Shown here piece by piece: positions 34,215 through 62,988 of a DNA stretch of 64,000 bases. Source of the DNA: an uncultured Porticoccus sp. Its GTDB lineage: Bacteria; Pseudomonadota; Gammaproteobacteria; Pseudomonadales; Porticoccaceae. The notes beneath the pieces are model-generated. The model searched no databases, was not told the DNA's origin, and saw only the letters and a list, made by a program, of their open reading frames with translations. The stretch's first letter is position 1, and each line of letters begins with the position of its first letter. The translations under genes and the position numbers were made by a program. The stretch is from assembly GCA_947259505.1 (NCBI GenBank), contig CAMYLT010000002.1:392598-456597 (forward strand), given 5' to 3'.

Positions 34215-34961
34215 GTGGAATTAAGTTGGTCCACCTTTCTGCTCGAGATCATCAACTTTCTGGTGCTGATCTGGATTCTCAAGCACTTTCTCTATAAGCC
34301 GGTGCTGGCCGTCATCGCCAAGCGTCAGGAGGGAGTCGAAAAAACCCTCGGTGAGGCCAAAGCCTTGCACGATGATGCCGACAAATTGAAACAACAGTAT
34401 GAGGCGCGCCTGGAACACTGGCAGCAGGAGCGCCAGCAAGCCCGTGATGCCCTGAATCGGGAGCTGGATACCGAGCGTTCACAAAAACTGTCCGCGTTGC
34501 GAAATACCCTGGAGCAGGAACGGGAAAAAGTGCGTGTTGCCGAGTCCCGCCGCCAGGCGGATGCACAACGCAAAGTAGAGGAAAGCGCGCTCGCTCAGGG
34601 GGCTCGTTTTGCCGGAAAATTACTGGCTCAGGTGGCGTGCCCAGAAACCGAAAAACGGCTAGTTGAACTGACCATCAACGAATTGGAGCAATTGCCACCA
34701 GAACGGCTGGCGGCATTCTTTACCCACAATGGCGCTTCCTCTGACATCATTACCGTAGTGAGCGCCTATCCGCTGGCAGAACTGCAACGCCAGCAGCTAC
34801 AGCAAGCACTTAGCCACAATGGTTGGACGGCGACACTGCAGTTCCAGCAGGATCCCACACTACTCGCTGGCTTGCATATCACTATGGGTGCATGGGTGTT
34901 GGCGGCCAATTTGCGCGATGAATTACGCGGCTTCTCGGAGCTGACCCACCATGAGCAGTAG
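34215..34961 (+). CDS. atpF: N-type ATPase fused b-delta stator subunit
   Basis: 248 residues, much longer than a plain b subunit (about 160). One N-terminal membrane helix (about 8-26), a long charged coiled coil (about 35-130), then a delta-like C-terminal domain ending [22 protein letters not shown]. The operon has no separate atpH, consistent with the b-delta fusion known for N-ATPases. It starts with GTG 34215. It overlaps atpA by 11 bases. Confidence 0.88.
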
Positions 34962-36483
34962 CGCCAACAAAATTAACAACGGTCTTGGTGATAGCCCCAT
35001 CCTGGAAACCGGCCTGCTTCAACGCCAAACAAGATGGCTGGACAGTTACCAGCCCCATCTACGCATCCAGGAACAAGGAGCCGTGGTCTCCGTGGGGGAT
35101 GGCATTGCCTGGATCGTCGGCTTACCGTCGGCAGCCATGGATGACGTATTGCTGTTTGCCGATGGCAGTCGCGGCATGGTGTTTGATCTCAACGAGAACA
35201 TGATAGGAGCCATTCTGCTGCTGGAGACGGAAACGCTGACCTCCGGAACCACTGTGCAGCGTTCGGGACACCCCCTCAGTGTGCCGGTGGGTGATGCACT
35301 GCTCGGCAGGACAATAGATCCACTGGGGCGACCTTTGGATGGTGGTGAGCCGCCAGCCCATACTTGCTGGCAGACGCTGGAAGCGCTTTCGCCACCCATT
35401 GTGGCCAGAGATTTTGTTCACAAGCCACTGTATTCCGGTATCAAAATTATCGACACCATGATTCCTATCGGCCGGGGACAGCGCCAACTGTTAATTGGAG
35501 ATGAGGGGTTGGGACGCAGCTCTGTGGCCATCGATACAGTGATTAATCAACGGGGGCAAGATGTCTACTGCGTCTACGTACTGATCGGCCAAAAACGTTC
35601 CACCGTGGTTAACGTGATGGAAACCCTGAAAGAGTTCGGCGCGCTTGACTACACCACACTCGTGGTAGCTGAGGCAACTGGACTGCCGGGACTGCAACAG
35701 CTGGCTCCATTTGCCGGCTGCGCCATCGCGGAATTCTGGATGCATCAAGGTCGCGATGTATTGGTGATCTATGACGACCTTTCCACCCATGCCCGCACCT
35801 ATCGGGAACTGTCGCTGTTATTGCGCCGACCACCTGGACGGGAGGCCTATCCCGGTGATATTTTTTCCGTTCACGCACGACTGCTAGAGCGGGCAACCAG
35901 CCTGAATGCCAACCACGGTGGCGGCAGTATGACGGCACTGCCCATTGTGGAAACCCAACTCGGCGAAATTGCTGCCTATATCCCCACCAATCTGATTTCC
36001 ATTACCGACGGCCAGGTGTATCTGGATCGCAACCTGTTTGCCGGGGGCTTTCGACCAGCCATTGATATCGGCCTGTCGGTCTCCCGCATCGGTGGCCAGG
36101 CACAGCATCCCCGCATCAAGGATGAAGCTGGACGGATGAAACTGGACTACCTGCAGTTCCAAGAGCTAGAGGTCTTCACTCGCTTTGGCGCACGGCTTGA
36201 GGCTTCTATGGAGGCCGCCATCCGCCGCGGCCAACTGCTAAGGGAAATCCTCAAACAGGATCGGCTATGCCCCCTGCCAGCCACTGCTCAGATGGCCTGG
36301 CTGGTAGCGTTTAATGACCACTTGCTCGATAAATTGGAACTACAGCAAATCGCCACATATCTGAGTCGACTTCAGGAAGGCGCTCGCACAAGCAATCTGA
36401 CGCTGGACAACCCGAGGGATGACTGGCAGACCGCTGTGGCCGACTGGCTAAGTGCGGATGCGGATACGGATACGACTGAATGA
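34951..36483 (+). CDS. atpA: N-type ATPase alpha subunit with degenerate P-loop
   Basis: 510 residues of the non-catalytic nucleotide-binding alpha type. The Walker A position reads GDEGLGRSS (residues 183-191), where alpha subunits normally have GDRxTGKT; the P-loop lysine is Arg189 and Thr is Ser. Other alpha features are intact: [36 protein letters not shown] (in consecutive blocks) and the arginine finger region [10 protein letters not shown]. The altered P-loop should weaken nucleotide binding in the non-catalytic sites. ATG 34951 overlaps atpF, and the stop overlaps atpG. Confidence 0.93.
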
Positions 36484-37361
36484 GCCGTCGACGCAGCCTT
36501 GAACAGCACCGGCGCAGTCTGGGGGAAATCCAGGAAATCATGAACTCCATGAAAACTCTGGCCTATATGGAAACCCGCAAACTAACCCGCTTCCTGGATG
36601 CCCAGCAGCAAGTGGTCGAGAGCATTGAGCATACAGCAACGGATCTACTGCACTTCTACCCTGAGATCCTGCCCGATAGTGAGAATTTACCAACGATCTG
36701 TTTGTTGGTTGGTTCAGAGAGAGGGTTTTGTGGTGATTTTAATCATGTCCTGTTGGAGCATCTGGCGAATGAACCACAGTATTCTCAGGCCGGGATTATC
36801 GCGGTGGGACACAAGCTCTGTACCTTACTGGACGATGATCCGCGAATACTCTTGGCTCTGGATGGCGCAGGCATCGCAGAGGAAGCAACCCCTCTGCTGA
36901 ACCGCCTGGTCAGCAAGCTGAGCACGCTGGAGAAAACTCGCGGCCCCTTGTCACTGGTGTGTCTCTACCACGAGTCCCCCGAACAGATTCGGGAACAAAG
37001 ACTACTACCGCCTTTCCGCACTTTGCCCATGCTCTCTGCGGGAGCTGGAGCAGCTCTAAGCAGCCCGCCATTACTTCATCAATCACCCCGCGAACTCCTG
37101 CTTGAGCTGACGGAACATTACCTCTTTGCAGTACTGTTCGAGATGCTCTACACCTCCCTAATGGCTGAGAACCATCACCGGGTAGCGCACCTGGAAAGTG
37201 CCGTCAGGCATCTGAATGACGAATCGGCCGAACTGGCGCGATCCTGCAACGTTCTAAGACAGGAAGAAATCACCGAAGAGATTGAAGTCATCCTGCTCGG
37301 TGCCGAAAATTTAGCTCAACAAACAATCACGGCCCACCCGGAGAAAACAAAAAATCCGTAA
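36480..37361 (+). CDS. atpG: N-type ATPase gamma subunit
   Basis: 293 residues. The N-terminal helix ([20 protein letters not shown], then [15 protein letters not shown]) and the C-terminal helix with [16 protein letters not shown] form the rotor coiled coil. The middle has [11 protein letters not shown], the conserved Rossmann-like segment. Last gene of the operon; it overlaps atpA by four bases. Confidence 0.92.
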
Positions 37362-37483: not shown

Positions 37484-37571
37484 AGGATTATTCGGCGCCA
37501 TGCGCCTCACCCTACGGGTCGCCGCCTACTGGCGGCGCTGTCTCGCACCAGTGGTGCTCGGCTCGAACCTG
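37484..37571 (-). repeat. 88-bp repeat, copy A (tRNA-associated)
   Basis: Identical over 88 bp to 37754-37841. On the minus strand the repeat runs into AATAATCCTC and then TTGAGTGTCCCACA, a degenerate version of the tRNA-Arg 3' end found after copy B, followed by an imperfect hairpin. The 37362-37902 stretch holds only these repeats, terminators and tRNA-like remnants (for example a GGTTCGA-containing arm near 37665-37690); I see no protein gene in it. Confidence 0.85.
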
Positions 37572-37710
37572 TGAGGAGGATTGACTCAAAACGGCCTGTC
37601 GCCATTTTGCCCCCTGTGGGGTTGCGCAACTTGCAGTTGCTGGATCCAACTTCCTGACGGAAATTGTCGAACCTCTGACGGTTCGAACTCTGTCGGGGAA
37701 CCATAAATAA

Positions 37711-37735
37711 AAAAACCACCGCGTGGGTGGTTTTT
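37711..37735 (-). terminator. Rho-independent terminator after repeat copy B
   Basis: AAAAACCACC and GGTGGTTTTT arms around a 5-nt loop. Read on the minus strand, GGTGG is followed by seven T. It lies directly after the tRNA-like 3' end that closes copy B. Confidence 0.75.
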
Positions 37736-37737
37736 AT

Positions 37738-37841
37738 ATATGGCGCACTCGGGAGGATTATTCGGCGCCATGCGCCTCACCCTACGGGTCGCCGCCTACT
37801 GGCGGCGCTGTCTCGCACCAGTGGTGCTCGGCTCGAACCTG
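37738..37841 (-). repeat. 88-bp repeat, copy B, ending in a tRNA-Arg 3' end
   Basis: Contains the second identical 88-bp copy (37754-37841). On the minus strand it continues into ATCCTCCCGAGTGCGCCA, the exact 3' end (including CCA) of the neighbouring tRNA-Arg, and then a terminator. It therefore resembles a tRNA 3' half joined to unrelated DNA, like the repeats with a tRNA 3' end downstream of tRNA-Tyr in the E. coli tyrT operon. Confidence 0.85.
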
Positions 37842-37870
37842 AGGAGGTTCTCACCTCCTCTCACACACAT

Positions 37871-37896
37871 AAAAAACCCGGCACAAGGCCGGGTTT
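37871..37896 (-). terminator. Rho-independent terminator of tRNA-Arg
   Basis: Arms AAACCCGGC (37874-37882) and GCCGGGTTT (37888-37896), 5-nt loop. On the minus strand the second arm is followed by a run of T. It lies 7 bp after the tRNA 3' end. Confidence 0.85.
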
Positions 37897-37902
37897 ATTT
37901 TA

Positions 37903-37979
37903 TGGCGCACTCGGGAGGATTCGAACCTCCGACCGCTCGGTTCGTAGCCGAGTACTCTATCCAGCTGAGCTACGAGTGC
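37903..37979 (-). tRNA. tRNA-Arg (anticodon ACG)
   Basis: A 77-nt cloverleaf on the minus strand: acceptor GCACTCG/CGAGTGC, anticodon stem CTCGG/CCGAG around the loop CTACGAA (anticodon ACG), T-stem GGAGG/CCTCC with TTCGAAT loop, discriminator G and encoded CCA. The D-stem closes with a G-U pair. ACG is read as ICG and decodes CGU/CGC/CGA. Confidence 0.97.
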
Positions 37980-48540: not shown

Positions 48541-48555
48541 GCAAGCACCATGCCA
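48541..48555 (-). promoter_or_regulatory. Sigma-54 (-24/-12) promoter of the DUF1302 operon
   Basis: On the minus strand: TGGCAT-GGTGC-TTGC, an excellent match to TGGCAC-N5-TTGC with the invariant GG and GC. It is about 109 bp before the DUF1302 start. The gene for a sigma-54 activator lies just beyond, in the opposite direction. Confidence 0.85.
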
Positions 48556-51158: not shown

Positions 51159-51881
51159 TTAATACATGTGTTGGCCGCCATTAATAGACAGTGTCGAGCC
51201 AGTGATAAAGCCACCCTCGTCTGACACCAGGAATAAAATGCCCCGAGCAATGTCATGAGCTGTACCCAAACGCCCTACAGGAATTTTAGCCACAATCTTT
51301 TCCAATACATCTGTAGGCACATTACGCACCATATCTGTATCCACATAGCCTGGCGCTACGGCATTAACAGTAATACCAAAAGCGGCACTTTCCAGGGCTA
51401 GCGCCTTGGTGAAGCCATGGATGCCCGACTTAGCCGCGGCATAGTTAACCTGGCCATATTGACCCGCCTGACCATTTAATGAACCCACGTTCACAATGCG
51501 GCCAAATTTACGCTCCCGCATACCTTCAATCACATTTCGGCACATGTTAAAACAGGAGCCAAGGTTTGTGTCGAGCACATCCTGCCACATGTCATGAGTC
51601 ATCTTATGCATGGTACGGTCACGAGTGATGCCCGCATTATTAATCAATACTGAAATAGGCCCTACTTCGCGTTCAATGCGCTCAATCCCTTCTTGGCATA
51701 CCCCGAAGTCTGACACATCAAATTTATAGACAGGAATTCCCGTGCGCTCATGGAACTCTCTGGCACGCTCATCATTACCGCCATAGTTTGCAACCGTATC
51801 GTAACCTGCCTCCTTCAGCTCGATAGCAATTGCCTCACCAATACCCCTTGTTCCCCCAGTTACCAATGCCACTTTAGACAT
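51159..51881 (-). CDS. PhaB-like acetoacetyl-CoA / 3-oxoacyl-CoA reductase (SDR)
   Basis: 240 residues of the short-chain dehydrogenase family. Cofactor motif TGGTRGIG at 8-15, NNAG at 81-84, catalytic S134, Y147 and K151 (YAAAK). The C-terminus INGGQHMY and the interior GSLNGQAGQYGQVNY are typical of PhaB, the NADPH-dependent reductase that makes (R)-3-hydroxyacyl-CoA. Good ribosome-binding site (AGGAG). It is separated from the thiolase operon by a strong terminator and a 350-bp gap, so it has its own promoter. It could send acetoacetyl-CoA to polyhydroxyalkanoate, or reduce another 3-oxoacyl-CoA. Confidence 0.88.
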   Translation of the reverse strand: MSKVALVTGGTRGIGEAIAIELKEAGYDTVANYGGNDERAREFHERTGIPVYKFDVSDFGVCQEGIERIEREVGPISVLINNAGITRDRTMHKMTHDMWQDVLDTNLGSCFNMCRNVIEGMRERKFGRIVNVGSLNGQAGQYGQVNYAAAKSGIHGFTKALALESAAFGITVNAVAPGYVDTDMVRNVPTDVLEKIVAKIPVGRLGTAHDIARGILFLVSDEGGFITGSTLSINGGQHMY

Positions 51882-52181
51882 ATTACATCTCCTGCTTTAT
51901 TTGACTACCAATACACTGCACATCATTGCACTTGCTGACGCCTATCAATCCCACAATCAGAATCACAATGAACATACCTTCAACTCAGTTTTCTCAGAGT
52001 AGATGTTATAGATGCGGTAGTGAATTCGACTTTTAGCGAACAATTTAAAAACACCTGCCACAAATTTTATTCTTATGGGTTAATAGATATACCAGCACGG
52101 AGAAAAATACAAATGCTATTCACCACAACTGGAAAATGTGAGTAAAAAAATGAGATGGTAGGGCAATGAAGGGGGATAAAG
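51882..52181. other. Intergenic region upstream of the PhaB-like gene
   Basis: About 300 bp, AT-rich, presumably carrying the reductase promoter. I found no -24/-12 element of the quality seen at the two operon promoters; TGGCAG near 52058 lacks the -12 GC. Confidence 0.4.
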
Positions 52182-52221
52182 CAGACAGGGCGCAACAGGA
52201 AATCCTGTTGCGCCCTGTCTG
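52182..52221 (-). terminator. Very long perfect hairpin ending the carboxylase operon
   Basis: Two perfectly complementary 19-bp arms (52182-52200 and 52203-52221) separated by only AA, starting 14 bp after the thiolase stop. GC-rich core GGGCGCAACAGG. The T-run after it is weak (CTTTAT). It acts as terminator or 3' mRNA-stabilising structure. Confidence 0.85.
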
Positions 52222-52234
52222 AAACAGCAGATTA

Positions 52235-53500
52235 TTATTTGAGGCGGCGCATTACCGTCACACAGTTAGTGACACCAGAACCACCAATGTTAACCGTCAT
52301 AGCAACTTCTGGATTACCTTTTGCCGCAACACCGATTGGCTGACCAATCAGTTGTTTATATGCTAAGGCGTGCATGGACGCCCCAGTAGCACCGACCGGG
52401 TGTCCTTTGGACTTCAGACCGCCTGAAAGGTTGATGGGACAGTCGCCGTCCACATCATATTTACCTGTCATAAAGTCATAGCCAGCACGACCTGTCTCAG
52501 ACAAACCGATCGCCTCTGTACAGAGAATCTGATTGACGGTAAAGCAATCATGCACTTCTGCCAGATCAAGATCAGCTACCGTAGCGCCCGCCTCATCCAG
52601 CGCAAGCTTTACCGCATGACGGGTAGCCTGCAGTTCATGCAAACGCCCCGCGCGCGCCTTGAGGCTCATACGGTCAGTCACATGGCCAATACCTGACAAC
52701 TCAACCGCATTCTTGAAATTTACTTGCGCATTATCAGAAGAGGTCAGCACTACCGCTGCCGCACCATCTGTGATCAAAGAACAATCGTGCAAACGCAGTG
52801 GTGGCGCAATCATCGGATTGCTACCCTTGCCTGATTCCGGCAGGTTCAGAATTGCTTCCGGAGTGATCAGCTGGTTTTTGTCCGGAATACTACCAGGGCC
52901 AAAATGGGCAAGAGGGTTCTGAATACCATTGCGGTAATTCAGTGCAGAAACGTGCGCCAGCATAATTCGCAGTTGCTCATCTGTCAGCTCATGTGTCGCT
53001 TGATAAGCTTTACCCAATTCCGCAAAAAGACCGGGGAACGTCATTCCCAGGGCGCCCTCTTCCGGCCAGTATGAACAGCAGGCCAGTGCGTGGGTGACAC
53101 CCGCAGTATCCAGGGTATTCATCTTCTCAACACCGATAGCCAGCACATTCTTGAAACGGCCAGAGGCCACAGCATAAGCAGCATTATAGATTGCCAGCGA
53201 TGACGTCGCGCAGGCGCCTTCTGTACGAGTGGTTGGCTTCAGCAGCAATCCGACCGGATCTATCTCAAGCGCCAGAGGGCCAACATGCTCTTGGTTGACA
53301 AACATGGAAGGTGAACATGAGCCCACCCATATGGCATCAATGTCTTTGGCTTCGAGACCGGCATCGGCGATCGCACCTGCACCAGCCTCTTCCAGCAACT
53401 CGTAGAACGATTTGAGGTCTTCTATCACTCCGGTTTCACGATCGCGCTTCACAAAAGCGCCAAATTGGGTGTTATAAGCACCGACAATACTGACCTTCAC
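52235..53500 (-). CDS. SCP-x-type thiolase / acetyl-CoA acetyltransferase
   Basis: 421 residues starting with GTG 53500 (GAGGA upstream). Nucleophilic Cys97 lies in EGACATSS. CFTVNQILCTEAIGLS and GHPVGATGASMHALAY carry the further active-site histidine, and NIGGSGVTNCVTVM closes the protein. This is the SCP-2/thiolase branch rather than FadA/PhaA. Position after a CoA ligase suggests it cleaves the 3-oxoacyl-CoA made from the carboxylated ketone into acetyl-CoA and a shorter acyl-CoA (or two acetyl-CoA). Confidence 0.88.
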   Translation of the reverse strand: MKVSIVGAYNTQFGAFVKRDRETGVIEDLKSFYELLEEAGAGAIADAGLEAKDIDAIWVGSCSPSMFVNQEHVGPLALEIDPVGLLLKPTTRTEGACATSSLAIYNAAYAVASGRFKNVLAIGVEKMNTLDTAGVTHALACCSYWPEEGALGMTFPGLFAELGKAYQATHELTDEQLRIMLAHVSALNYRNGIQNPLAHFGPGSIPDKNQLITPEAILNLPESGKGSNPMIAPPLRLHDCSLITDGAAAVVLTSSDNAQVNFKNAVELSGIGHVTDRMSLKARAGRLHELQATRHAVKLALDEAGATVADLDLAEVHDCFTVNQILCTEAIGLSETGRAGYDFMTGKYDVDGDCPINLSGGLKSKGHPVGATGASMHALAYKQLIGQPIGVAAKGNPEVAMTVNIGGSGVTNCVTVMRRLK

Positions 53501-53563
53501 GGCATATTCCTCGCTTGGGTGGTTAAACGTTAAAGATAGAGATGAAAGCGGGAAGCGCTTACA

Positions 53564-55126
53564 TCAGATATTACGACCGGCATCCTGCCAGAAGACTTTC
53601 CGGATCTCTTTTTTCAATACCTTGCCCACAGGGCTTCGCGGTAATTCATCCCAGAAAAATACTTGTTTGGGCGCTTTGACACTCCCAAGCTTGTTTTTGC
53701 AGTACTGGATTATCTCCTGTGCATCGGGCTGTTTCATATTAGCCTTAAGTTCAACGACAGCAGTAACCTGTTCACCCCATTTTTCGTCAGGAATCCCGAC
53801 CACTGCGCAATCATTGATGGCCGGATGCGCCCATAGCAGTTGTTCAATCTCACTAGGATAGACGTTAAAACCACCCGAAATAATCATGTCCCGCTTGCGA
53901 TCAACAATAGACAGGTACCCATCTTTATCCAGTACACCGATGTCTCCGGTGCGCTGCCAGCCATCTTTCCGAATCTCGGCAGTGGCCTCTGGATTTCGAT
54001 AGTAACTACGCATCAGCAAGTTACCGCGAACGGCGATCTCTCCCTCTGCTCCGATGGGCAATGGCTGCCAGTCATCGTCCAGGATGGCCAACTCGACATG
54101 AGGCGAGACTTTGCCACAGGAACGCAGAATTTCCGGACGATTATGCTCAAGTGCATAGACATGATCCGTGGCAGATAAAAACGTGCAGATCATTGGCGCT
54201 TCCGCCTGGCCGTAACTCTGCACCATGACCGGCCCAAAGGCATCAATGGCTTCCTTGAGTTTTTCCACTGACATCGGCGCCGCAGCGTACCAGAAGTAGC
54301 GCAGGCTGGAGTAATCATAAGACTTGATCGACTCGTGGGCCAACAGCATATAAATGGCCGTCGGCGGCATGAACAGATGTGTAACCTGATACCGCTCAAT
54401 GGTTTCGAGCAGCCTCTCCGGCACCATGCCATCCATCACAATCACCGATGCCCCCTGTCGAATGGTGGCAAACGATGCCACACCCGCCGCATGGGTCATA
54501 GGTGCAGAAACAAGGTAGCTACCAGGGATATCTGGTATCGGCATCAACTCATTCTGGATGGATGTCAGTGTTTTCCAACTACGGCTACTCCACTCAGCCA
54601 GCTTGGAATCACCAGTAGTGCCTCCCGTGGCAAAGAGATTGAGCAGGGGATCAGGCCCCTCAGGCACGACATCAATGGCAAGCTCACCGGGCAACTCATC
54701 GGCCAGCGCCACGAGCTCGACACCCACCACTTGGCGGCCATCAAACTTCAGCAACTGTTCTTCAGGGAAGACCTCGGCAATCTGAGGCATGGAGGCGACG
54801 ATGCTGTCATCTACAAAAAATTTGACGGCACCGGACTTGATAATCTGCTTCTGGTTCGCTTCGAATGTGTTACGAACATTGAGCGGCAACCAAACGGCAC
54901 CCAATCGGGATATGGCAAAAATACAGCAATAGGCAGCAACGGAGTTAGGGGCATAAGTCGCGACCACATCCTGCGACCTCACCCCCTTCTGCCGTAACAC
55001 CTCTGCTATCTGAACAGAGGCATTAACCATCTGCCGGTAACTGAGAGACAAGCCATTATCTAAATCAACAAACTCCGCTTCACCCGACAATGCCGGACTA
55101 TTATCAAGAAAGTCGACAAGACGCAT
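53564..55126 (-). CDS. AMP-forming acyl-CoA ligase, candidate 3-oxoacid activating
   Basis: 520 residues from ATG 55126, which has AAGGAG upstream; the frame extends 12 codons further without support. ANL-superfamily motifs in order: LFATGGTTGDSKLAEWS (P-loop), SYGQAEAP, QRTGDIGVLDKDGYLSIVDR, DMIISGGFNVYPSEIE and the catalytic lysine in PRSPVGKVLKKE. In the acetophenone pathway the carboxylase is followed by a benzoylacetate-CoA ligase; this gene has the same position, so the substrate is probably the 3-oxoacid released by the carboxylase. Confidence 0.88.
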   Translation of the reverse strand: MRLVDFLDNSPALSGEAEFVDLDNGLSLSYRQMVNASVQIAEVLRQKGVRSQDVVATYAPNSVAAYCCIFAISRLGAVWLPLNVRNTFEANQKQIIKSGAVKFFVDDSIVASMPQIAEVFPEEQLLKFDGRQVVGVELVALADELPGELAIDVVPEGPDPLLNLFATGGTTGDSKLAEWSSRSWKTLTSIQNELMPIPDIPGSYLVSAPMTHAAGVASFATIRQGASVIVMDGMVPERLLETIERYQVTHLFMPPTAIYMLLAHESIKSYDYSSLRYFWYAAAPMSVEKLKEAIDAFGPVMVQSYGQAEAPMICTFLSATDHVYALEHNRPEILRSCGKVSPHVELAILDDDWQPLPIGAEGEIAVRGNLLMRSYYRNPEATAEIRKDGWQRTGDIGVLDKDGYLSIVDRKRDMIISGGFNVYPSEIEQLLWAHPAINDCAVVGIPDEKWGEQVTAVVELKANMKQPDAQEIIQYCKNKLGSVKAPKQVFFWDELPRSPVGKVLKKEIRKVFWQDAGRNI

Positions 55127-55158
55127 AATCGTCTCCTTACTACCGAACGTTTTAAGGC

Positions 55159-56019
55159 TCAACCTTTGATGGTTGCTAACGTATCCAGCACTTCTTCCGG
55201 TTTGGCATCCGCAGGAATGGTCAAATAGTAAAAACCATTTGTTGCCGGCAGTGCTTCGCCAGCCTTGTCACCCCAGAGCATATCAGTGATCTCAATGCCT
55301 TTCGATTTGGCCGCGGTAGGAGAACCCGCAGGCGCGATCGCAAAATTGATATCAGCCGGAACGTCATAGTCTGTATCAGCCGATGGCAAATACACACCAA
55401 CAGACCAACGGTAGTGCTTGGCCACATTATAGATGGGTTGGTACCAGCTGAGCTCCTCACCATTGGCAGGCATTAACTCAGGGTCTTCAACCAACATCAC
55501 ACCGGACAAATCAGTTTCACTGAAATAACGCAGGAAGTCTGCCATGTACATTGCGGCAGTATCGACGTTCATTTCATCGGGCTCTGCCGCCTCACCATTG
55601 GCTGCCTGGTGAGCTTTTACCAGCAGCGAACGGGGTGACGGAATTACCAGCACCATCGGCGTAGATGAACCGTAATTGTTACCCAGCGCAGTGATGACTT
55701 CAGCCAACAATTCGCGAGGAGCAAACGCTTCCAACATGGTTTTCAGGGCGACGGTCACCCGACGCTTACCGGCCATGGAAGGAAGCGCATCTGCGTCTTC
55801 TTTCATCCAGTGTTGAAACAAGTCCCATACATCCAGAACCACAACCTGAGCTTTCACCAGGCCATGTGCCTGTCCGTAAAAGGACATATAGGAAGCCGGC
55901 GTGGTCCAGGGATTCTCATCCTTGCCCAACAACAGCTTCTTGGTGTAGTCGTTAAAATTAATCCAAAGCCGGGGGGGTTCCCCCCCGGCTGCCAGATAGG
56001 ACGTCAAATCAACAGCCAT
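55159..56019 (-). CDS. Acetophenone-carboxylase-like epsilon subunit (ApcE-like)
   Basis: 286 residues (about 31 kDa). No signal peptide, membrane helix or catalytic motif that I recognise. The assignment rests on position (after the HyuB-like gene, before the ligase) and on size, because acetophenone carboxylase has a fifth subunit of about 34 kDa with no analogue in acetone carboxylase. Segments such as AQVVVLDVWDLFQHWMKED and NYGSSTPMVLVIPSP may help find homologues. ATG 56019 with AAGGA; the upstream stop is one base away. Confidence 0.65.
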   Translation of the reverse strand: MAVDLTSYLAAGGEPPRLWINFNDYTKKLLLGKDENPWTTPASYMSFYGQAHGLVKAQVVVLDVWDLFQHWMKEDADALPSMAGKRRVTVALKTMLEAFAPRELLAEVITALGNNYGSSTPMVLVIPSPRSLLVKAHQAANGEAAEPDEMNVDTAAMYMADFLRYFSETDLSGVMLVEDPELMPANGEELSWYQPIYNVAKHYRWSVGVYLPSADTDYDVPADINFAIAPAGSPTAAKSKGIEITDMLWGDKAGEALPATNGFYYLTIPADAKPEEVLDTLATIKG

Positions 56020-56020
56020 A

Positions 56021-58297
56021 CTATTTCCTTTCGTTTGCAGGAGGCAGGCCGGCTTGTTTTCTCACTTCAACAAGCTCGGCTTCAAGCTCGGAGATTCTAA
56101 CATCTTTAGGATGAGTCACATAAATGGGACCCGGGTTTTTGGCATCGCGCTTGTCGTGGATACTACCCGCGTAAACGCTATCCAGGTCATCGTTCCATGA
56201 ACCATAGAAGGGGATGTTTTCCGGAGGAGTATCCTTGACATGGCTCTTCACGAATTCCGCATAAGGCACACCCTGCTTCTTGCGCAGTGCACGGTATTCA
56301 GCACGAAGCTTTTCAGTGGCTTCAGCGTCAACCACTAGGGTTTGTTCATTGAATTCCACTTTGTACAACTTCTTCGCCCAGTCAGCCGTGATCAGGCCTT
56401 CCTCAATATCCATGATCACATAGGTGGGATCACGCTCGAGGGGGTCACCATAACCGCCGCCAGAACCCTGGGAGATCATGTACAGCTCACCGCGCTTGGA
56501 GATGTCGAAGCCCATACCCATGTGGTGAGTAGAGTACTTGGCACCCGGGAACGGTTGCTCATTCATGATTTCGTGGATGCTGTGCTTAAACATCTCAGGC
56601 GTTTTCAGCAAGATGTCATAAACATCCATTCCCTGAACCTTACACAGTGGGTAGGAACCACCCGCGTAACCACCAAAAAGGCCCTGAATAGTAGGTACTT
56701 TTGAACCCTGGGTGGTGGTCATAAAGCCCCACTGATCACTGTCTTTAGTCGCTGCGATCATGGTGTAACCCATACCACCGCGGTATTTTCCAGGTGCTTG
56801 AGTGTTAGTGGTCATTTTCTTGGAAACCAACTGCAGGAATGGTACTTCTTCCTCGTTCATTTCCTGCTCACCGATATCCGCCATGGTGGCAAAGATCGGA
56901 GACAGCGCGTGCTCACCATCGCGGTCCATACGAGCACCACCACCCATACCGTTCAAGTCGGCACAGAGGTTACCCAGAGTTTCACCATGCTGGTTAACAC
57001 CACCCCAGATGAAGGTGTTGATCATGTTGTGCCAGGGTGCAAGAACACGTGTGTACTTGTCTGGACAGCTGTACAGGAACTTGGCCGTCGCATGCTGAGC
57101 CACAGTGAAGCTGTGGAAGATGGACATCAAGCTCTGGGAGTTTGGCGCTGCGTAAGAACAGTCAACCAATGTGCCTTGCTGAGTCACAAACTCAACCGGA
57201 GACAGACCGGCTTGACCACGAGGCAGGTCAGGCCAAATGTGATTCATAAACGCCTGGCCCACCATGCCTTTCATACCCGGCAACTGGGTATTGATGGCTC
57301 GGTTGGTCAACTCCGGGCTGGTACCGGTGAAGTCAAAGATCAGACGATTGCCTTTTTTGGTCACAGCCAGGTTGATTTTCAGCAAGGCATTTTCACGCAG
57401 GGTGCTGTCCATAATGGTTTGAGTGCGCACAGTCATGTCAGGCCACTCGGAGATACGACGACGAACTTCAGTCACCACGCTCTCGTTGGTGTAGCGCAGA
57501 CATGCAGTCAGGGCATCAGGGCCATCAGCAGCCAGCACTTCCTTGATACGCTTTTCGAGACGCATACAGGCAAACAGTTTTACCTTCATGTCCTCGTACT
57601 GCAGCTTCGGCTCACGTACAGAGTTTTGCAGGAAGGTCAGCAGGTCTTTCTTGATCTCATAGTTTTCCACCACTTTGAACGGAGACATTTTCAGGCCTTC
57701 GTCAAAAGAGGTTTCCGCCATGGAGGGCATGCCGCCCGGCTCAATTGCACCGTTCTCACCTTCGTGTACGGTAGATGCCACCCAGCAAACCAGCTGGCCT
57801 TCGTGGAATACCGGCACGATCATGCTCTGGTCAGTGTTGTGCACGTTACCGTAGCGTGAGTCGTTGTGGATGAAGCCGTCACCTTCGCTAACACCTACCG
57901 TTTTTTCTTCGATCCAGTTCTTGATGATGAACTTGATAGGGTGGTGAACCAATGCAGAGAAGATCAGTACACCGCCAGCACTACCAATGGTCAGGTCACC
58001 TGACGCAGAGTAAATGCCGGTGATGATGTCACCCCACTTCGCACCGGGTGCTGCACCCATCTGCTCAACCATTTCAAAACCTTCTTCACACGCGGACTGC
58101 AAGCGTTCACGAATGGAAGCGATCTGGTTAAGATCAGTGAATTTTTCCATGCAGCGATCTTCATCAGCCGAACGCGGCATGATGCTGTGGTCACGCATGA
58201 TATCCGGATCGGGACCCAGAAACAGGGTGGTTTCCTTGAGGAATTTTGCAATCAGCTCCTGATCTTCCAGAGCCTGGTTGGTTGTTTCGTTATTCAT
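56021..58297 (-). CDS. HyuB-like ketone carboxylase subunit (ApcC-like)
   Basis: About 758 residues of the hydantoinase-B / acetone carboxylase alpha family. Seen: GDIITGIYSASGDLTIGSAGG cut near the N-terminus, HNDSRYGNVHNTDQ, IFDFTGTSPELTNRAINT and the glycine-rich SQGSGGGYGDPLERDPTYV typical of HyuB C-termini. This subunit carboxylates the activated enol(phosphate) in the known complexes. ATG 58297 is preferred over TTG 58303. It follows the HyuA-like gene by 22 bp. Confidence 0.88.
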   Translation of the reverse strand: MNNETTNQALEDQELIAKFLKETTLFLGPDPDIMRDHSIMPRSADEDRCMEKFTDLNQIASIRERLQSACEEGFEMVEQMGAAPGAKWGDIITGIYSASGDLTIGSAGGVLIFSALVHHPIKFIIKNWIEEKTVGVSEGDGFIHNDSRYGNVHNTDQSMIVPVFHEGQLVCWVASTVHEGENGAIEPGGMPSMAETSFDEGLKMSPFKVVENYEIKKDLLTFLQNSVREPKLQYEDMKVKLFACMRLEKRIKEVLAADGPDALTACLRYTNESVVTEVRRRISEWPDMTVRTQTIMDSTLRENALLKINLAVTKKGNRLIFDFTGTSPELTNRAINTQLPGMKGMVGQAFMNHIWPDLPRGQAGLSPVEFVTQQGTLVDCSYAAPNSQSLMSIFHSFTVAQHATAKFLYSCPDKYTRVLAPWHNMINTFIWGGVNQHGETLGNLCADLNGMGGGARMDRDGEHALSPIFATMADIGEQEMNEEEVPFLQLVSKKMTTNTQAPGKYRGGMGYTMIAATKDSDQWGFMTTTQGSKVPTIQGLFGGYAGGSYPLCKVQGMDVYDILLKTPEMFKHSIHEIMNEQPFPGAKYSTHHMGMGFDISKRGELYMISQGSGGGYGDPLERDPTYVIMDIEEGLITADWAKKLYKVEFNEQTLVVDAEATEKLRAEYRALRKKQGVPYAEFVKSHVKDTPPENIPFYGSWNDDLDSVYAGSIHDKRDAKNPGPIYVTHPKDVRISELEAELVEVRKQAGLPPANERK

Positions 58298-58319
58298 AAT
58301 CAAATACCCCTATATCTAC

Positions 58320-60470
58320 TTAATTCTTTGAATCGACGCGGAAGAACCAAACAGCGCCCTGCTCAGCAGAGACATACTTCCAGCCCGGCTCGATCAAGTA
58401 GGTTGTTACGTCGGAAGCCACGAGACCTGGCCCCACAATCTCAGTTCCTGGAGGAATGTCGCTTTTGCGCCATACCGGAGTTTCGATACCTTTTGAACCA
58501 GTGCTAACAAAGTAACAGGTACGTGTGGTATTCGGAGCCGGCGGAGCAATACGCTCGCCCTCAGAAACAGGTTTGATATGTTTGAAATGAACAGTGTCAT
58601 GCTCAACAAAGGATGCAACGCGGATGGTATTGATACGAATACCTGCTTCCGGCGCCTGGCTACCTTCACCAAAGCGGTGACCATAGTCAGAAGAGAATTG
58701 CTGCAGGATATTCATTACATCAATGGCTGTGTTCAGAGTGTGCTTGGAAATAACAACAGTGGTTTGTACCAGCTGGTTACCGTAGCGCATATCCAGTTCC
58801 AGCGAGTGCTTAATGGCAGAGGCATCAGCACCCTGACGCAGCAGGTCATTTTTTCCGCGCTCACTCAATTCAGCAACGATATCGTTGAAGCGCTTGTAAT
58901 CATCGAACACTTTACGGGTGTTTGAATCGTACAGCACCAGGAACAGGGACATTTCGTGAATGTGCATCTGGTGCATGTTGCCAGCACCCAGCGCAGAGAA
59001 CACGGAACTCATCGGCGGAGCCAGAATCTTGTCGATGTTCAGGTTGCTGGCGATACCACAGCAGTGCAGCGGACCGTTACCACCGTAAGCCAACATGGTG
59101 AAGTCTTCAGGGTCATAACCACGTACACGCAACTCGGTGTGCAGGCCATTCGCCATGTTGCTGTCCACTTTCTCTTTGATCAGCAGCGCAGCTTCAACCG
59201 GCTCACAATCCAGGTCATCACAAAGAGTTTCTTCGATAGCAAACACGGAACGCTTGGGGTTCAAAGGAATGTGGCCACCGGCGTAGTTCTTCGGATCCAG
59301 ATAACCTAACACCAAGTCAGCATCGGTCACGGTTGGATTCATACCACCACGGTCATAACAGGCTGGGCCTGGATCAGAACCGGCACTCTTCGGACCAACA
59401 GCAACAGCGTTGTACATACGGTCAAAAGAAGCGATAGAACCACCACCAGCACCAAGGGTTACCAGGTGAACCATGGGCACAGAAACCAACCAACGGTCAA
59501 TAACCGGGTTGAAGTCATAGTGCTTGATACCACCTTCTACCACGATACCGATGTCGTAAGAGGTACCGCCCATATCGGTAGCAACAACGCTACCCAGGTC
59601 AGCTTCTTTCGCCAAGTGTTCCGCCGCACTGATACCGGAAACCGGACCAGAGTGGATGGTTTGCAGGGCATCAGTTGAGTTCAGCTGAGCCATACCACCG
59701 GAGTTGTGGATCACCAGCATCGGCTTGGAGTAAGAGTTGGCGCGCAGGTTCTGCTCCAACTGGCTCATAGCGTGGTACATGGTGGAGTGCAGATAACCGT
59801 CCACAATCGCGGAAGTTGCACGAACGTACTCGCCTTTACGACCCGCTACACGGTGAGACAGGATCGTTGGGATAGAACCTAACAGGTGAGAGGGGTACTC
59901 ATCCAGCAGGATCTGCTCGATGCGCTTCTCGTGATCGGGGTTAACCACGGAGTTAACCAGACAAACTACGATAGCCTGAGCACCTTTATCCACCAGAGAG
60001 CGGATCTTGTTGCGAACGTCTTTCTCATCCAGCGGCATGACCAGCTCGCCCTGATAACCAAGACGCTCACGAATGCCTTCGATCATGTGAGGCAGAACAA
60101 GAGGGGCAGGACGCTGCGCATCAGGCAGGTTCTGTTTGCCCAGCTCATCCAGACCTTCACCGTAACCACGGCCACGGCTCAGAGGAACCATTGCCTCGTA
60201 ACCGGCAGTAACGAGCATACCGATACGCGGACCATTATGTTCGATCAGGGCATTGGTACCCAAAGTGGTTGCGTAACGCACGGAGTCAACACCACCCAGG
60301 ATTTCTTCCATGGTGATGCCCAACTCAGTGTATGCCTTTTCAACGGCTTCGTTAAAACCGAGCGCCAAGTTGTGGTGAGTGGTCAGTGCCTTGGTTTCGA
60401 TGTACTTGCCGTCCCACACGGTAAAGCAATCGGTGAAAGTACCACCGATATCTACTGATATACGTTTCAT
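58320..60470 (-). CDS. HyuA-like ketone carboxylase subunit (ApcD-like)
   Basis: 716 residues of the hydantoinase-A family with an ASKHA-type ATP-binding fold. N-terminal phosphate-binding motif DIGGTFTDCF at 7-16, then RYATTLGTNALIEHNGPRIG split at the conserved GTNA, VVATDMGGTSYDIGIV, and LGAGGGSIASFD with GPKSAGSDPGPACYDRGG following in two blocks. Complete motifs suggest it binds and splits ATP. Second HyuA-type protein of the operon, as in acetophenone carboxylase (two different HyuA subunits) and unlike acetone carboxylase (one). Confidence 0.9.
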   Translation of the reverse strand: MKRISVDIGGTFTDCFTVWDGKYIETKALTTHHNLALGFNEAVEKAYTELGITMEEILGGVDSVRYATTLGTNALIEHNGPRIGMLVTAGYEAMVPLSRGRGYGEGLDELGKQNLPDAQRPAPLVLPHMIEGIRERLGYQGELVMPLDEKDVRNKIRSLVDKGAQAIVVCLVNSVVNPDHEKRIEQILLDEYPSHLLGSIPTILSHRVAGRKGEYVRATSAIVDGYLHSTMYHAMSQLEQNLRANSYSKPMLVIHNSGGMAQLNSTDALQTIHSGPVSGISAAEHLAKEADLGSVVATDMGGTSYDIGIVVEGGIKHYDFNPVIDRWLVSVPMVHLVTLGAGGGSIASFDRMYNAVAVGPKSAGSDPGPACYDRGGMNPTVTDADLVLGYLDPKNYAGGHIPLNPKRSVFAIEETLCDDLDCEPVEAALLIKEKVDSNMANGLHTELRVRGYDPEDFTMLAYGGNGPLHCCGIASNLNIDKILAPPMSSVFSALGAGNMHQMHIHEMSLFLVLYDSNTRKVFDDYKRFNDIVAELSERGKNDLLRQGADASAIKHSLELDMRYGNQLVQTTVVISKHTLNTAIDVMNILQQFSSDYGHRFGEGSQAPEAGIRINTIRVASFVEHDTVHFKHIKPVSEGERIAPPAPNTTRTCYFVSTGSKGIETPVWRKSDIPPGTEIVGPGLVASDVTTYLIEPGWKYVSAEQGAVWFFRVDSKN

Positions 60471-60521
60471 AACCTTATATTCCTAATCAGTCCTAATTCA
60501 TTCACAGACAACAAGCAGATA

Positions 60522-60926
60522 TCAGTGCTTGTGCGTGTGACAGCGGTCTACCAGAACGTTGGGGCCTTTTATCGGCTCGAGAATTTCTTCCCGCTGGCTC
60601 CATTGCTCTTTCAGGGCATCCACATCCACTTCCATATCGTAAAGCGGTGCGTGGTTGGGGAACGTGTATTCCACCTCCACTTGAGTACCGCAGGACGGAC
60701 AGTAGAACTCGTAGATGTTTACCCACTCTCTGTCAGGACAGAAGGTGAAACGGTATTTGTCCGGGTCAATGATGGATGGGTGAATATCAGCAGGGTCACG
60801 GTTATATACCAGCAGACCTTCTTTATAGTTACCACGGGCAGAACCAACTACGTGGTCACACACACGGCATTCCCAATTTTCCGTCTCCAGATCGATGCGG
60901 AGATACTCAGTCATCAATACTTTCAT
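60522..60926 (-). CDS. Small zinc-binding carboxylase subunit (ApcB / acetone carboxylase gamma-like)
   Basis: 134 residues (15 kDa). Cysteine pairs CRVCDH (about 20-25) and CPSCG (about 72-76) form a probable zinc site; ENWECRVCDHVVGSARGNYK and PDREWVNIYEFYCPSC are typical of the gamma subunit family. The C-terminus is His-rich (RCHTHKH). The start overlaps the stop of the upstream HyuA-like gene (TAATG). Confidence 0.88.
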   Translation of the reverse strand: MKVLMTEYLRIDLETENWECRVCDHVVGSARGNYKEGLLVYNRDPADIHPSIIDPDKYRFTFCPDREWVNIYEFYCPSCGTQVEVEYTFPNHAPLYDMEVDVDALKEQWSQREEILEPIKGPNVLVDRCHTHKH

Positions 60927-62860
60927 TATTTTTCCCCCTTCGTCAGGCGGATATCGCCCAGTTCAGTTACAACGAATTCCCAACCTTCGTGAACCAGACA
61001 GGTAAAGAACTCTTCTTCGATTACAGCAGGACCAGCGCCATAAACACCGGGCTCCATGAAGTTCACTTCGTAAACGGGCACATCTTGCCAACCGGCATCA
61101 CCCATAAAGAGAGAACGGTTTTTAGTCGCCTTGGCCGGATTACCTTTCTTCACACCCGCATGGGTGTTGCTCTCGGTTTTCAGGTTCTTGCGTACGGACA
61201 CTTCCAGAGTGATCGCGTCGGCTTTAGCCATTTCCTGAGGAATGGCAACAGCACCGTCTATTTTGTGAGACAGTTCAACACCGTCTTTCTCACCGATCAG
61301 ACGAGCCTCAAAAGCGTATTCGCCCTTGCTGTAGCCTTCCGCAAACATGTCACGCTCACCGCGCTCCATCAGATTCACATAGGCACCTTCCAGAGAAGCC
61401 TGACGGTCGCCTTTCAGAACAACTGAGTAGCTCTGACCGATGTCACAGGAACCGATACCGAAGGCACTGAAGACTGCCGCCATTTTCGGTACATATACTG
61501 TGGAAATACCAGATTTGTCCGCTGCACCACAGGCGTTCATTGGGCCGGCGCCACCGAAAGCCATCAGGACAGTATCCGCATCAATCGTGCCGTGTGCTTG
61601 CAGTTCATTTGCAACTTTCTGCTCTACCGCATCGCGCATCTTGAACAGGGCTTCATCAACGGAAATCCCCAGCGGAGTAGCGACATTGTCTGCAATGGCT
61701 GTGCGGGCACGGTCAGCATCCAGCGCCAAGCCGCCACCGAAATAGGTGGTAGGATCAAGCAGACCCAGCAGCAAGTTCACATCGGTGATGGTGGCGTTTT
61801 TACCACCGCGACCGAAACAAGCCGGCCCGGGTACTGCGCCAACACTCTCAGGACCTACCTGAATAGCACCGTCTTTAACTGCCAGAATGGAGCTTCCGCC
61901 CACACCAGGGCTGGCAATTTCACAAAGACCGAAGGAAATTGGCACACCTTCCACCAGACCGCGGCGATCTTCCTGAACGTTGCCATTAACCACCTGTCCG
62001 ATATCCGTAGTGGTTCCACCGACATCCATGAACAGAACATTTTTCAGGTTGTACTGCTTGCTAAAGGTTTTCACCCCTTCCATACCACCGCGGGGACCGG
62101 AACTGTATGTTTTCAACGCGATAGTCTTGGCCACGCGGGATGCGTCACCGTCGTTGCGGAAGATCAACAGTGGGTTCTTGGTGCGATATTCACGCAGACG
62201 GTTTTCTGCGTTGTACAGGAAGCTTTCCATCGCCGGATGCAAGAAGGAGTTGATCATCGCAGACCAAGCGCGACGCTCGGTGGACACATCATCTACCAGT
62301 TCACTTGCAAACAACATCGGCACAGCACCCAGCAGGTGACGGGGATAGTTGTCGAATGCCAGACGCTTGAATTGCGCTTCGAATTCGCTGGCCTTGTCAC
62401 TCTCAAAACAAACCACGATACGGTTAGCGCCAATGGACGTCAGGCGCGTAATTACCGCAGTGGTTTCAGCTCCTTTGGCTTCATCGTCAAGAGCGTGCAG
62501 ATCGACTTCTGCAACTCTGTTACCCACAAAGAAGTCGTAAAGTTCCACATCCAGCCCACGCAAGCGAGCAGGCAGGTCAGAACCTTTGTTAACCACCAAA
62601 CCCAGGCGTGGACCTTTGCGTTCCACAATTGCGTTGGTACCTTGGGTGGTGGAGTAGCGGATGTGATCCACTTCTGCCAGCAGGCGGGCAACATCCTCCT
62701 GCCCATAGACTGCTTCGGAGATTTTACGCAAACCATCGAAGAAGCACTTACTCAGATCGTAAGGCGTTGTCAGGGTTTTAGTCTTATAAGAGTTATTGTC
62801 CTTGAGCAAACAGATATCTGTCAGCGTTCCGCCGTTATCGATATTTATCAGCATTCCCAT
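60926..62860 (-). CDS. HyuA-like ketone carboxylase subunit, first gene (ApcA-like)
   Basis: 644 residues (about 69 kDa). Divergent HyuA: the phosphate motif reads DNGGTLTD (about 8-15) instead of DIGGTFTD, and the protein is about 70 residues shorter than its partner at 58320-60470. Other family blocks are present: STTQGTNAIVERKGPRLG, FMDVGGTTTDIGQVV, GVGGSSILAVKDG, GPACFGRGGKN and AFGGAGPMNACG. It heads the operon, 114 bp after a sigma-54 promoter. In known complexes two HyuA-type subunits, one HyuB-type and one small subunit form the carboxylase core. Confidence 0.88.
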   Translation of the reverse strand: MGMLINIDNGGTLTDICLLKDNNSYKTKTLTTPYDLSKCFFDGLRKISEAVYGQEDVARLLAEVDHIRYSTTQGTNAIVERKGPRLGLVVNKGSDLPARLRGLDVELYDFFVGNRVAEVDLHALDDEAKGAETTAVITRLTSIGANRIVVCFESDKASEFEAQFKRLAFDNYPRHLLGAVPMLFASELVDDVSTERRAWSAMINSFLHPAMESFLYNAENRLREYRTKNPLLIFRNDGDASRVAKTIALKTYSSGPRGGMEGVKTFSKQYNLKNVLFMDVGGTTTDIGQVVNGNVQEDRRGLVEGVPISFGLCEIASPGVGGSSILAVKDGAIQVGPESVGAVPGPACFGRGGKNATITDVNLLLGLLDPTTYFGGGLALDADRARTAIADNVATPLGISVDEALFKMRDAVEQKVANELQAHGTIDADTVLMAFGGAGPMNACGAADKSGISTVYVPKMAAVFSAFGIGSCDIGQSYSVVLKGDRQASLEGAYVNLMERGERDMFAEGYSKGEYAFEARLIGEKDGVELSHKIDGAVAIPQEMAKADAITLEVSVRKNLKTESNTHAGVKKGNPAKATKNRSLFMGDAGWQDVPVYEVNFMEPGVYGAGPAVIEEEFFTCLVHEGWEFVVTELGDIRLTKGEK

Positions 62861-62973
62861 ATCGAGTTACCTTAGTAGTTAAGTTTCTTTCTAGCCTAGA
62901 TTCATTTGGGTTATAAACTTCACTGCAACGCGTCCGACAGATCGAACACACCTCAGAGAGCTATCAGTAATAA

Positions 62974-62988
62974 GCAATATGCATGCCA
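62974..62988 (-). promoter_or_regulatory. Sigma-54 (-24/-12) promoter of the ketone carboxylase operon
   Basis: On the minus strand: TGGCAT-GCATA-TTGC followed by T, a near-perfect -24/-12 promoter about 114 bp before the first carboxylase gene. It shares TGGCAT-N5-TTGC and a similar leader length with the DUF1302 promoter at 48541-48555. Confidence 0.88.

Follow-up and report, generated by a model that had tools for sequence, protein, structure and literature searches.

We analysed an operon that resembles acetophenone carboxylase (Apc) in a 64,000-nucleotide stretch of DNA (the window) from the genome of an uncultured Porticoccus, a marine relative of oil degraders, covering positions 392598-456597 of contig 2 of G000, an assembly of 2.46 Mb in 8 contigs that is 94% complete. 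On the minus strand, proteins of 644, 134, 716, 758 and 286 residues, here called A to E, are followed by an acyl-CoA ligase and an SCP-x-type thiolase, and the Pfam and NCBIfam matches bear out the gene set, sizes and strand given by the original prediction, which had been made from the sequence alone (Table 1). In the called reading frames, A shares 1 bp with B and E shares 4 bp with the ligase gene, the remaining gaps from A through the thiolase are 1-63 bp, and a short-chain dehydrogenase/reductase (SDR) of the PhaB type lies 353 bp further on. The D frame encodes 760 residues from a TTG start and 758 from an ATG two codons further. The subunit homology, operon structure, motifs, clade and neighbouring genes described below can be read directly from the sequence.

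Table 1. Features of the operon and its surroundings, with positions in the window
Feature	Position	Strand	Evidence or location
ApcA-like (alpha') HyuA-type kinase subunit, 644 aa	60926-62860	minus	NF042960 347 bits; PDB 5l9w_b E 2e-88, 32% identity
ApcB-like (gamma) small Zn subunit, 134 aa	60522-60926	minus	PF08882 118.6 bits; 5l9w_C E 1e-27; Cys 20/23/76/79
ApcC-like (alpha) HyuA-type, putative ketone-kinase subunit, 716 aa	58320-60470	minus	NF042975 587 bits; 5l9w_B E 4e-161, 38% identity
ApcD-like (beta) HyuB-type subunit	56021-58303	minus	NF042976 331 bits; 5l9w_A E 1e-85; D92 H155 D158 H180
ApcE-like (epsilon) subunit, 286 aa	55159-56019	minus	remote hhalign match to NF042977-type ApcE
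Acyl-CoA ligase (AMP-dependent), 532 aa as called	53564-55162	minus	PF00501/PF13193; PRK06187 375 bits, under cut-off 476
SCP-x-type thiolase, 421 aa	52235-53500	minus	PF22691/PF00108; PRK07516 334 bits, under cut-off 412
Acetoacetyl-CoA-reductase-type (PhaB-type) SDR, 240 aa	51159-51881	minus	TIGR01829 338 bits, over cut-off 302.1
Sigma-54-dependent activator with GAF and Fis HTH, 671 aa	49006-51021	plus	PF00158, PF01590, PF02954
AmeA-like outer-membrane protein (DUF1302), 570 aa	46720-48432	minus	PF06980
AmeB-like periplasmic protein (DUF1329), 493 aa	45151-46632	minus	PF07044 168 bits
AmeC-like BNR/YCF48 protein, 402 aa	43830-45038	minus	PF14870
AmeD-like RND/MMPL transporter, 784 aa	41411-43765	minus	PF03176
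Sigma-54-type -24/-12 site TGGCATGCATATTGC	62974-62988	minus	113 bp before apcA
Weak sigma-54-like site TGGCATGGTGCTTGC	48541-48555	minus	108 bp before ameA-like gene

Subunit identity and gene order

The genes apcABCDE are described as encoding the alpha', gamma, alpha, beta and epsilon subunits, in that order (PMC5214803). Proteins A to D of the window each have their positional namesake in 5l9w as best PDB match (A to 5l9w_b, B to 5l9w_C, C to 5l9w_B, D to 5l9w_A), and their best NCBIfam matches are likewise ApcA, ApcB, ApcC and ApcD. Because each core subunit best matches its positional namesake, the order is colinear with apcABCDE, and these matches rule out the swap of the two large later subunits that had been proposed. 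Protein sizes led the original prediction astray; C and D do differ in relative length (716/758 in the window versus 733/685 in the Apc models). All four scores lie below the NCBIfam equivalog cut-offs (bits/cut-off of 347/1250 for A, 119.5/250 for B, 587/1500 for C and 331/1500 for D), at 28, 48, 39 and 22%, respectively, and D is 31% identical to the Apc-type ApcD of locus L061.

The ASKHA ATP motifs are kept in both the alpha and alpha' subunits of the window, with DNGGTLTD, DVGGTTTD and GAVPGP present in A. The gamma-type protein, earlier counted as having four Cys, has six (20, 23, 63, 76, 79 and 129), among which 20, 23, 76 and 79 align with the four Zn ligands named for Apc. In the beta subunit, D92, H155, D158 and H180 correspond to Asp65, His123, Asp126 and His148, which are named for Apc in PMC5214803, and are invariant in 13 aligned rows including the window; H155, D158 and H180 also align with His150, Asp153 and His175 of acetone carboxylase (Acx), described as its Mn ligands (PMC5543143). 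The Apc beta subunit is reported to be about 50 residues shorter than that of Acx, and the Apc gamma subunit to be short (PMC5214803); the window gamma, at 134 residues, fits the latter, while its beta subunit of 758 residues compares with 685 in the Apc model and 776 in the Acx PDB chain. The alpha fingerprint R/KERiDsxG reads RERLGYQG in the window, and other members of its clade vary from a full to a partial fit. Downstream, the thiolase carries CATSS, HDCF and GHPVGATG.

Protein E gave no match in Pfam, NCBIfam or PDB, even at E<=10. Authentic ApcE sequences were sought by running the ApcD model against 369 genomes of the window's class, six of which (own genome included) matched at 1e-60, none over the cut-off. 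At the Apc-type loci L061 and L062, ApcC is 78% identical to 5l9w_B and the E proteins match NF042977 at 301 and 314 bits (cut-off 450). When 14 diverse E sequences of the window clade were compared with four Apc-type E sequences by hhalign, the match had a probability of 92% (E 6e-7, 176 columns, score 53.7) and the reverse direction gave 91%, with scores of 51-54 across both directions; for the 14-row profile, 21 control families stayed at or below 0.7% (score <=21.4) and reversed profiles at 0.2%. Pooling 49 E rows gave 47% and 66% by direction (scores 37 and 41), compared with controls of <=20.5 for the window-clade E and <=22.3 for the Apc-type E, and with reversed profiles of <=21.0; a narrower profile of 36 close E rows reached 5.5% only. 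We conclude from these profile comparisons that the 286-residue protein is a remote homologue of ApcE, invisible to BLAST, which agrees with the role foreseen for it.

The E proteins of two further Apc-type loci, L063 (9230-9955) and L064 (9255-10046), match the uroporphyrinogen decarboxylase family URO-D (PF01208) at 8.8e-6 and 1.5e-5, just over the gathering score, and MtaA methyltransferases were also matched, weakly. By this likeness, ApcE may be a uroporphyrinogen-decarboxylase-type barrel. Such a fold was not supported for the E protein of the window, as hhalign against 21 HemE sequences scored 15-23, no better than the controls.

Phylogenetic position and the predicted ketone pocket

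In a HyuA tree of 41 rows, with one reference each for hydantoinase and oxoprolinase and with long branches flagged, protein C and 16 relatives formed a 17-row clade with support of 100/100, spanning Proteobacteria, Rhodococcus, a haloarchaeon and a contig labelled Verrucomicrobia. The characterised chain 5l9w_B formed a separate five-row group with L061-L064, also at 100/100, and both were joined with a third small group (L065/L066) at 88/93 only. The references for acetone carboxylase, hydantoinase and oxoprolinase lay outside the window and Apc groups, so the HyuA protein is placed apart from the single hydantoinase and oxoprolinase references, in keeping with the original prediction. Identity as a hydantoinase or 5-oxoprolinase was rejected on this placement (one reference each, long branches) and on the presence of a gamma subunit; hydantoinases are described as two genes, hydAB, without a gamma subunit (PMC5214803). 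Acetone carboxylase was rejected as well, given five genes, two HyuA proteins and a position outside the Acx clade; the Acx of this genome is another locus (L042).

The predicted acetophenone pocket of Apc comprises L81, F281, N282, P285, I333, Q344 and T345 (PMC5214803). The window has T, I, H, P, I, H and L at these seven positions and so differs at five. Across the clade, positions 81, 281, 282, 344 and 345 are occupied by Thr, Ile/Val (one Met), His, His/Tyr and Leu (one Met), with Thr81 and His282 present in all 17 rows. An Apc-type operon and a window-clade operon coexist in four of the six ApcD-matching genomes (G148, G177, G269 and G370), which argues that the two are not simply interchangeable. 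Judged by its sequence, the window operon belongs to a separate sister clade of the characterised acetophenone carboxylase and is not that enzyme.

Distribution and gene neighbourhood

A scan of genome contigs returned 482 pattern matches, with 383 stretches encoding ApcD relatives, from which the best 80 were kept (ApcD 59-91% identical). Of these 80 loci, 66 have all five genes, in the same order in every case. Among the 64 loci that extend far enough on either side, 62 have the full set; the exceptions, L093 and L151, lacked a BLAST-detectable E, and no E was found in L070, which came from another search. The constant order across related loci indicates that the five-gene arrangement is not due to chance. 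Carriers include Azotobacter vinelandii, Xanthobacter, Zoogloea, Aromatoleum diolicum, Acinetobacter populi, Ciceribacter naphthalenivorans, Novosphingobium naphthalenivorans and contigs labelled Geobacter and Verrucomicrobia, and the genes are on plasmids in Neorhizobium petrolearium, Rhodococcus jostii RHA1 (pRHL2), Cupriavidus necator N-1 and Halorientalis marina.

Within the genus of the window, the clade is present in 13 of 17 genomes (G000 and 12 others, by PF08882 matches and fetched loci). The closest named loci include Porticoccus-labelled metagenome-assembled genomes (MAGs; L073, L075 and L078) with ApcD 90-91% identical, and in the operon of congener G008 ApcC is 91% identical, with a DUF1302 gene and the start of DUF1329 past the regulator. 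In one congener MAG (L034, from G015), both ApcC and ApcD are split in two in tblastn matches, through real decay or an assembly error.

Where inspected, members of the clade are annotated as hydantoinase/oxoprolinase and acetone carboxylase gamma, and an apc1-4 cluster of Rhodococcus ruber with a Fis-family regulator is already listed as acetophenone carboxylase (PMC6498646). Sightings of such clusters at the level of annotation therefore already exist. The original prediction expected this type of operon to extend the known range; its occurrence outside the classical degraders holds, but the breadth is not new, as the clade is already widespread and a Rhodococcus cluster is in print. Our search of open-licence papers found no characterised enzyme of the clade, and for the Apc branch only one characterised enzyme is reported as of 2017 (PMC5214803).

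The genes around the operon were counted over the 80 loci, and the counts are lower bounds, since many loci are incomplete and several families were named from one representative each. A sigma-54 regulator was nearby in 45, a thiolase in 29, a CobW-type GTPase in 29, a ligase in 23, DUF1302 in 15, BNR in 10, DUF1329 in 9 and a ZIP transporter in 6. The CobW-type GTPases are a metallochaperone family. Nine loci (L094, L116 and L134 among them) and also L043 have an RpoN paralogue next to the operon, sometimes with CoA-transferase genes. The PhaB-like reductase adjoins the operon as the original prediction had pointed out, although a general link did not emerge, the gene being near 7 of the 80 loci and thus mainly local.

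Past the regulator, the window encodes a cassette that resembles AmeABCD, described as the apolar-monoterpene efflux cassette of Castellaniella defragrans, whose AmeD is placed in the distinct HAE3 lineage of RND transporters (PMC6394551). Of 12 congener loci fetched with the operon, seven reach far enough, and DUF1302 is next after the regulator in all seven; in L067-L069, the genes next to the operon include more distantly related MMPL and BNR members (27-30% identity). The sigma-54-type site TGGCATGCATATTGC before apcA, with which the end of the originally delimited region (62988) coincides, recurs with <=2 mismatches in 51 of 67 related loci compared with 125 of 800 random segments, the relatives not being independent; the window as a whole holds 91 such sites where 84 are expected, which is no excess. 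The weaker site TGGCATGGTGCTTGC on the ameA side recurs with <=2 mismatches in 3 of 15 related loci and in none of three further congener loci, and because it is mostly not conserved we do not claim that the Ame cassette shares a sigma-54 promoter. Elsewhere in the window, ATP synthase genes at 34215-37361 encode a fused b/delta (OSCP) subunit of 248 residues, followed by alpha and gamma, and may represent a second F-type ATPase, and two RtT RNA matches adjoin a tRNA at 37487-37979.

Metabolic setting, proposed substrate and known systems

The other HyuB locus of the genome (L042) encodes a classical acetone carboxylase and adjoins a sigma-54 regulator of its own, to which the window activator is 40% identical; its AcxA is 67.5% identical to PDB 5svb_B, so that acetone is already served. 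Congeners G006 (L026) and G016 (L036) hold a different acetone-carboxylase-like set with ligase-like, SDR-like and unannotated genes; in L036 it consists of HyuB (735 residues), gamma (187) and HyuA (722), preceded by a DUF1329 gene.

The original prediction had suggested looking for aromatic or alkane pathways across the genome; BoxB, the ring-hydroxylating dioxygenase alpha subunit (PF00848), P450 and FA_desaturase/AlkB gave no match in G000, in searches whose control panel was positive for each family (BoxB in one control genome only, below cut-off). The lack of BoxB and dioxygenase speaks against acetophenone, since the benzoyl-CoA formed from it would have to be used further, and the lack of AlkB and P450 matches speaks against alkane oxidation by these enzymes as the source of a ketone. 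PF00848 had no match in congeners G005, G007, G008 and G010 either, and soluble di-iron monooxygenase (PF02332) had none in 17 genus genomes, which is uninformative, as the control genomes were equally silent. Porticoccus hydrocarbonoclasticus is described as phytoplankton-associated and as using polycyclic aromatics almost exclusively (PMC4472908), and a naphthalene-enriched Porticoccus MAG was reported without known polycyclic-aromatic pathways (PMC8125074). An obligate polycyclic-aromatic lifestyle is thus on record for a member of the genus, yet five Porticoccus genomes show no dioxygenase alpha subunit.

Taken together, we consider it reasonably likely that the operon encodes an ATP-dependent ketone carboxylase with five subunits, which belongs to a distinct clade within the Apc branch, that its substrate is most probably a non-aromatic hydrophobic methyl ketone, and that it operates with the ligase, thiolase, Ame-type transporter and sigma-54 activator. 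In the best-supported view, the substrate is a ketone different from acetophenone and probably different from acetone too; the altered pocket and the neighbouring Ame cassette favour a hydrophobic methyl ketone. The carboxylation itself, its substrate and all catalytic steps are inferred, the mechanism by analogy with Apc. ApcC would phosphorylate the enol of a ketone R-CO-CH3 and ApcA bicarbonate, ApcD would carry the metal site, ApcB would be structural and ApcE would couple the two kinase reactions. The ligase is predicted to activate the resulting 3-oxoacid, R-CO-CH2-COOH, with CoA, and the thiolase would cleave the activated product to R-CO-CoA and acetyl-CoA. The neighbouring AmeABCD-type transporter would take part in handling the ketone, with the sigma-54 activator in control.

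A bolder version, which we regard as possible but doubtful, is that enzymes of the clade generally carboxylate large hydrophobic methyl ketones of the alkyl or isoprenoid kind (e.g., phytol-derived 6,10,14-trimethylpentadecan-2-one), working with an AmeABCD-type transporter, and that they would form a main route of carbon entry in Porticoccus. Carboxylation of isoprenoid ketones was reportedly treated in a 1997 paper, which PMC3660661 cites as a degradation study.

Several observations weigh against the hydrophobic methyl ketone reading. An AmeD-like (MMPL) gene is near a minority, 11 of the 80 related loci, and the gene absences rest on a genome that is 94% complete. Of the three bicarbonate residues proposed for ApcA, Glu248 is replaced by Ser and Lys281 by Asp in the window. 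These replacements would suit an ATP-dependent hydrolase or another enzyme on the same kinase scaffold, in a family that includes hydantoinases and lactamases (PMC5214803), but the paired HyuA proteins, gamma subunit, epsilon homologue and downstream ligase and thiolase make it very improbable that no ketone carboxylase is encoded.

CoA-transferase genes near some of the 80 loci (A-type in 10, B-type in 8) would suit acetoacetate too, and with it a second carboxylase for acetone, butanone or a similar short-chain ketone, differing from the Acx of the genome in affinity or cost. The window-type sigma-54 regulators near 45 of the 80 loci, the kinship of the window activator to the regulator of Acx, and the Xanthobacter strains that carry the clade, acetone carboxylase being known from X. 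autotrophicus Py2 (PMC5543143), point the same way; we nevertheless consider this unlikely in a genome that already has a clear Acx and has an Ame-type hydrophobe cassette next door to the operon.

The last of the contrary observations comes from L039, of the same family, where a ring-hydroxylating dioxygenase alpha and beta pair (988-2660) lies directly upstream of the five genes and hints at aromatic substrates in that lineage. A true acetophenone or aryl-ketone carboxylase would also accord with five colinear subunits and a ligase downstream as in apc-bal, with Apc as the best characterised homologue of all four core subunits, and with a genus that includes an aromatic-hydrocarbon degrader (PMC4472908). 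That the window encodes one is improbable, given A-D scores of 22-48% of the NCBIfam cut-offs with no match for E, the separate clade, the pocket changed at 5/7 positions, the genomes (4/6) that carry both types, and the lack of BoxB and PF00848. The original prediction is thereby upheld for the Apc type of ketone carboxylase with ligase and thiolase, but not for the characterised acetophenone enzyme.

The clade is widespread and, as far as our search of open-licence papers shows, uncharacterised, and has tractable carriers (Azotobacter vinelandii, Xanthobacter and Zoogloea) besides the R. jostii RHA1 plasmid. Once the substrate is known, many operons could be annotated correctly, and genes might become available that account for the carboxylation of ketones in the sea; the near-constant fifth gene yields many new sequences for the elusive epsilon subunit. 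The clade also bears on how Porticoccus, described as an almost exclusive user of polycyclic aromatics (PMC4472908), lives without a detectable ring-hydroxylating dioxygenase.

Among known systems, AmeABCD of C. defragrans has DUF1302, DUF1329, BNR/COG4447-type and RND genes in the same order and of similar size (PMC6394551), whereas the window cassette adjoins a ketone carboxylase operon, the likeness being one of Pfam domains and order only. AcxABC (PDB 5svb, 5m45) shares homologous HyuA, HyuB and gamma proteins, and the Acx of this genome is also beside a sigma-54 activator; it differs in having three genes, one HyuA and a longer gamma. The clusters of R. jostii RHA1 pRHL2, N. petrolearium and H. 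marina have C in the same clade, the five-gene order and ApcD 42-70% identical, but that of N. petrolearium is accompanied by CoA-transferase A and B, a sigma-54 factor and a GTP-binding protein, and that of H. marina by two AMP-binding proteins and a thiolase. Apc of Aromatoleum aromaticum (PDB 5l9w; NF042960, NF042974-NF042977) is alike in its five subunit types and their order, ATP motifs, Zn cysteines, beta-subunit metal ligands and downstream ligase. In contrast to Apc, the window operon belongs to a separate clade with a changed ketone pocket, a beta subunit 73 residues longer than the Apc model and an epsilon subunit recognisable by profile only, and it stands with an SCP-x thiolase, a sigma-54 regulator and an Ame cassette.

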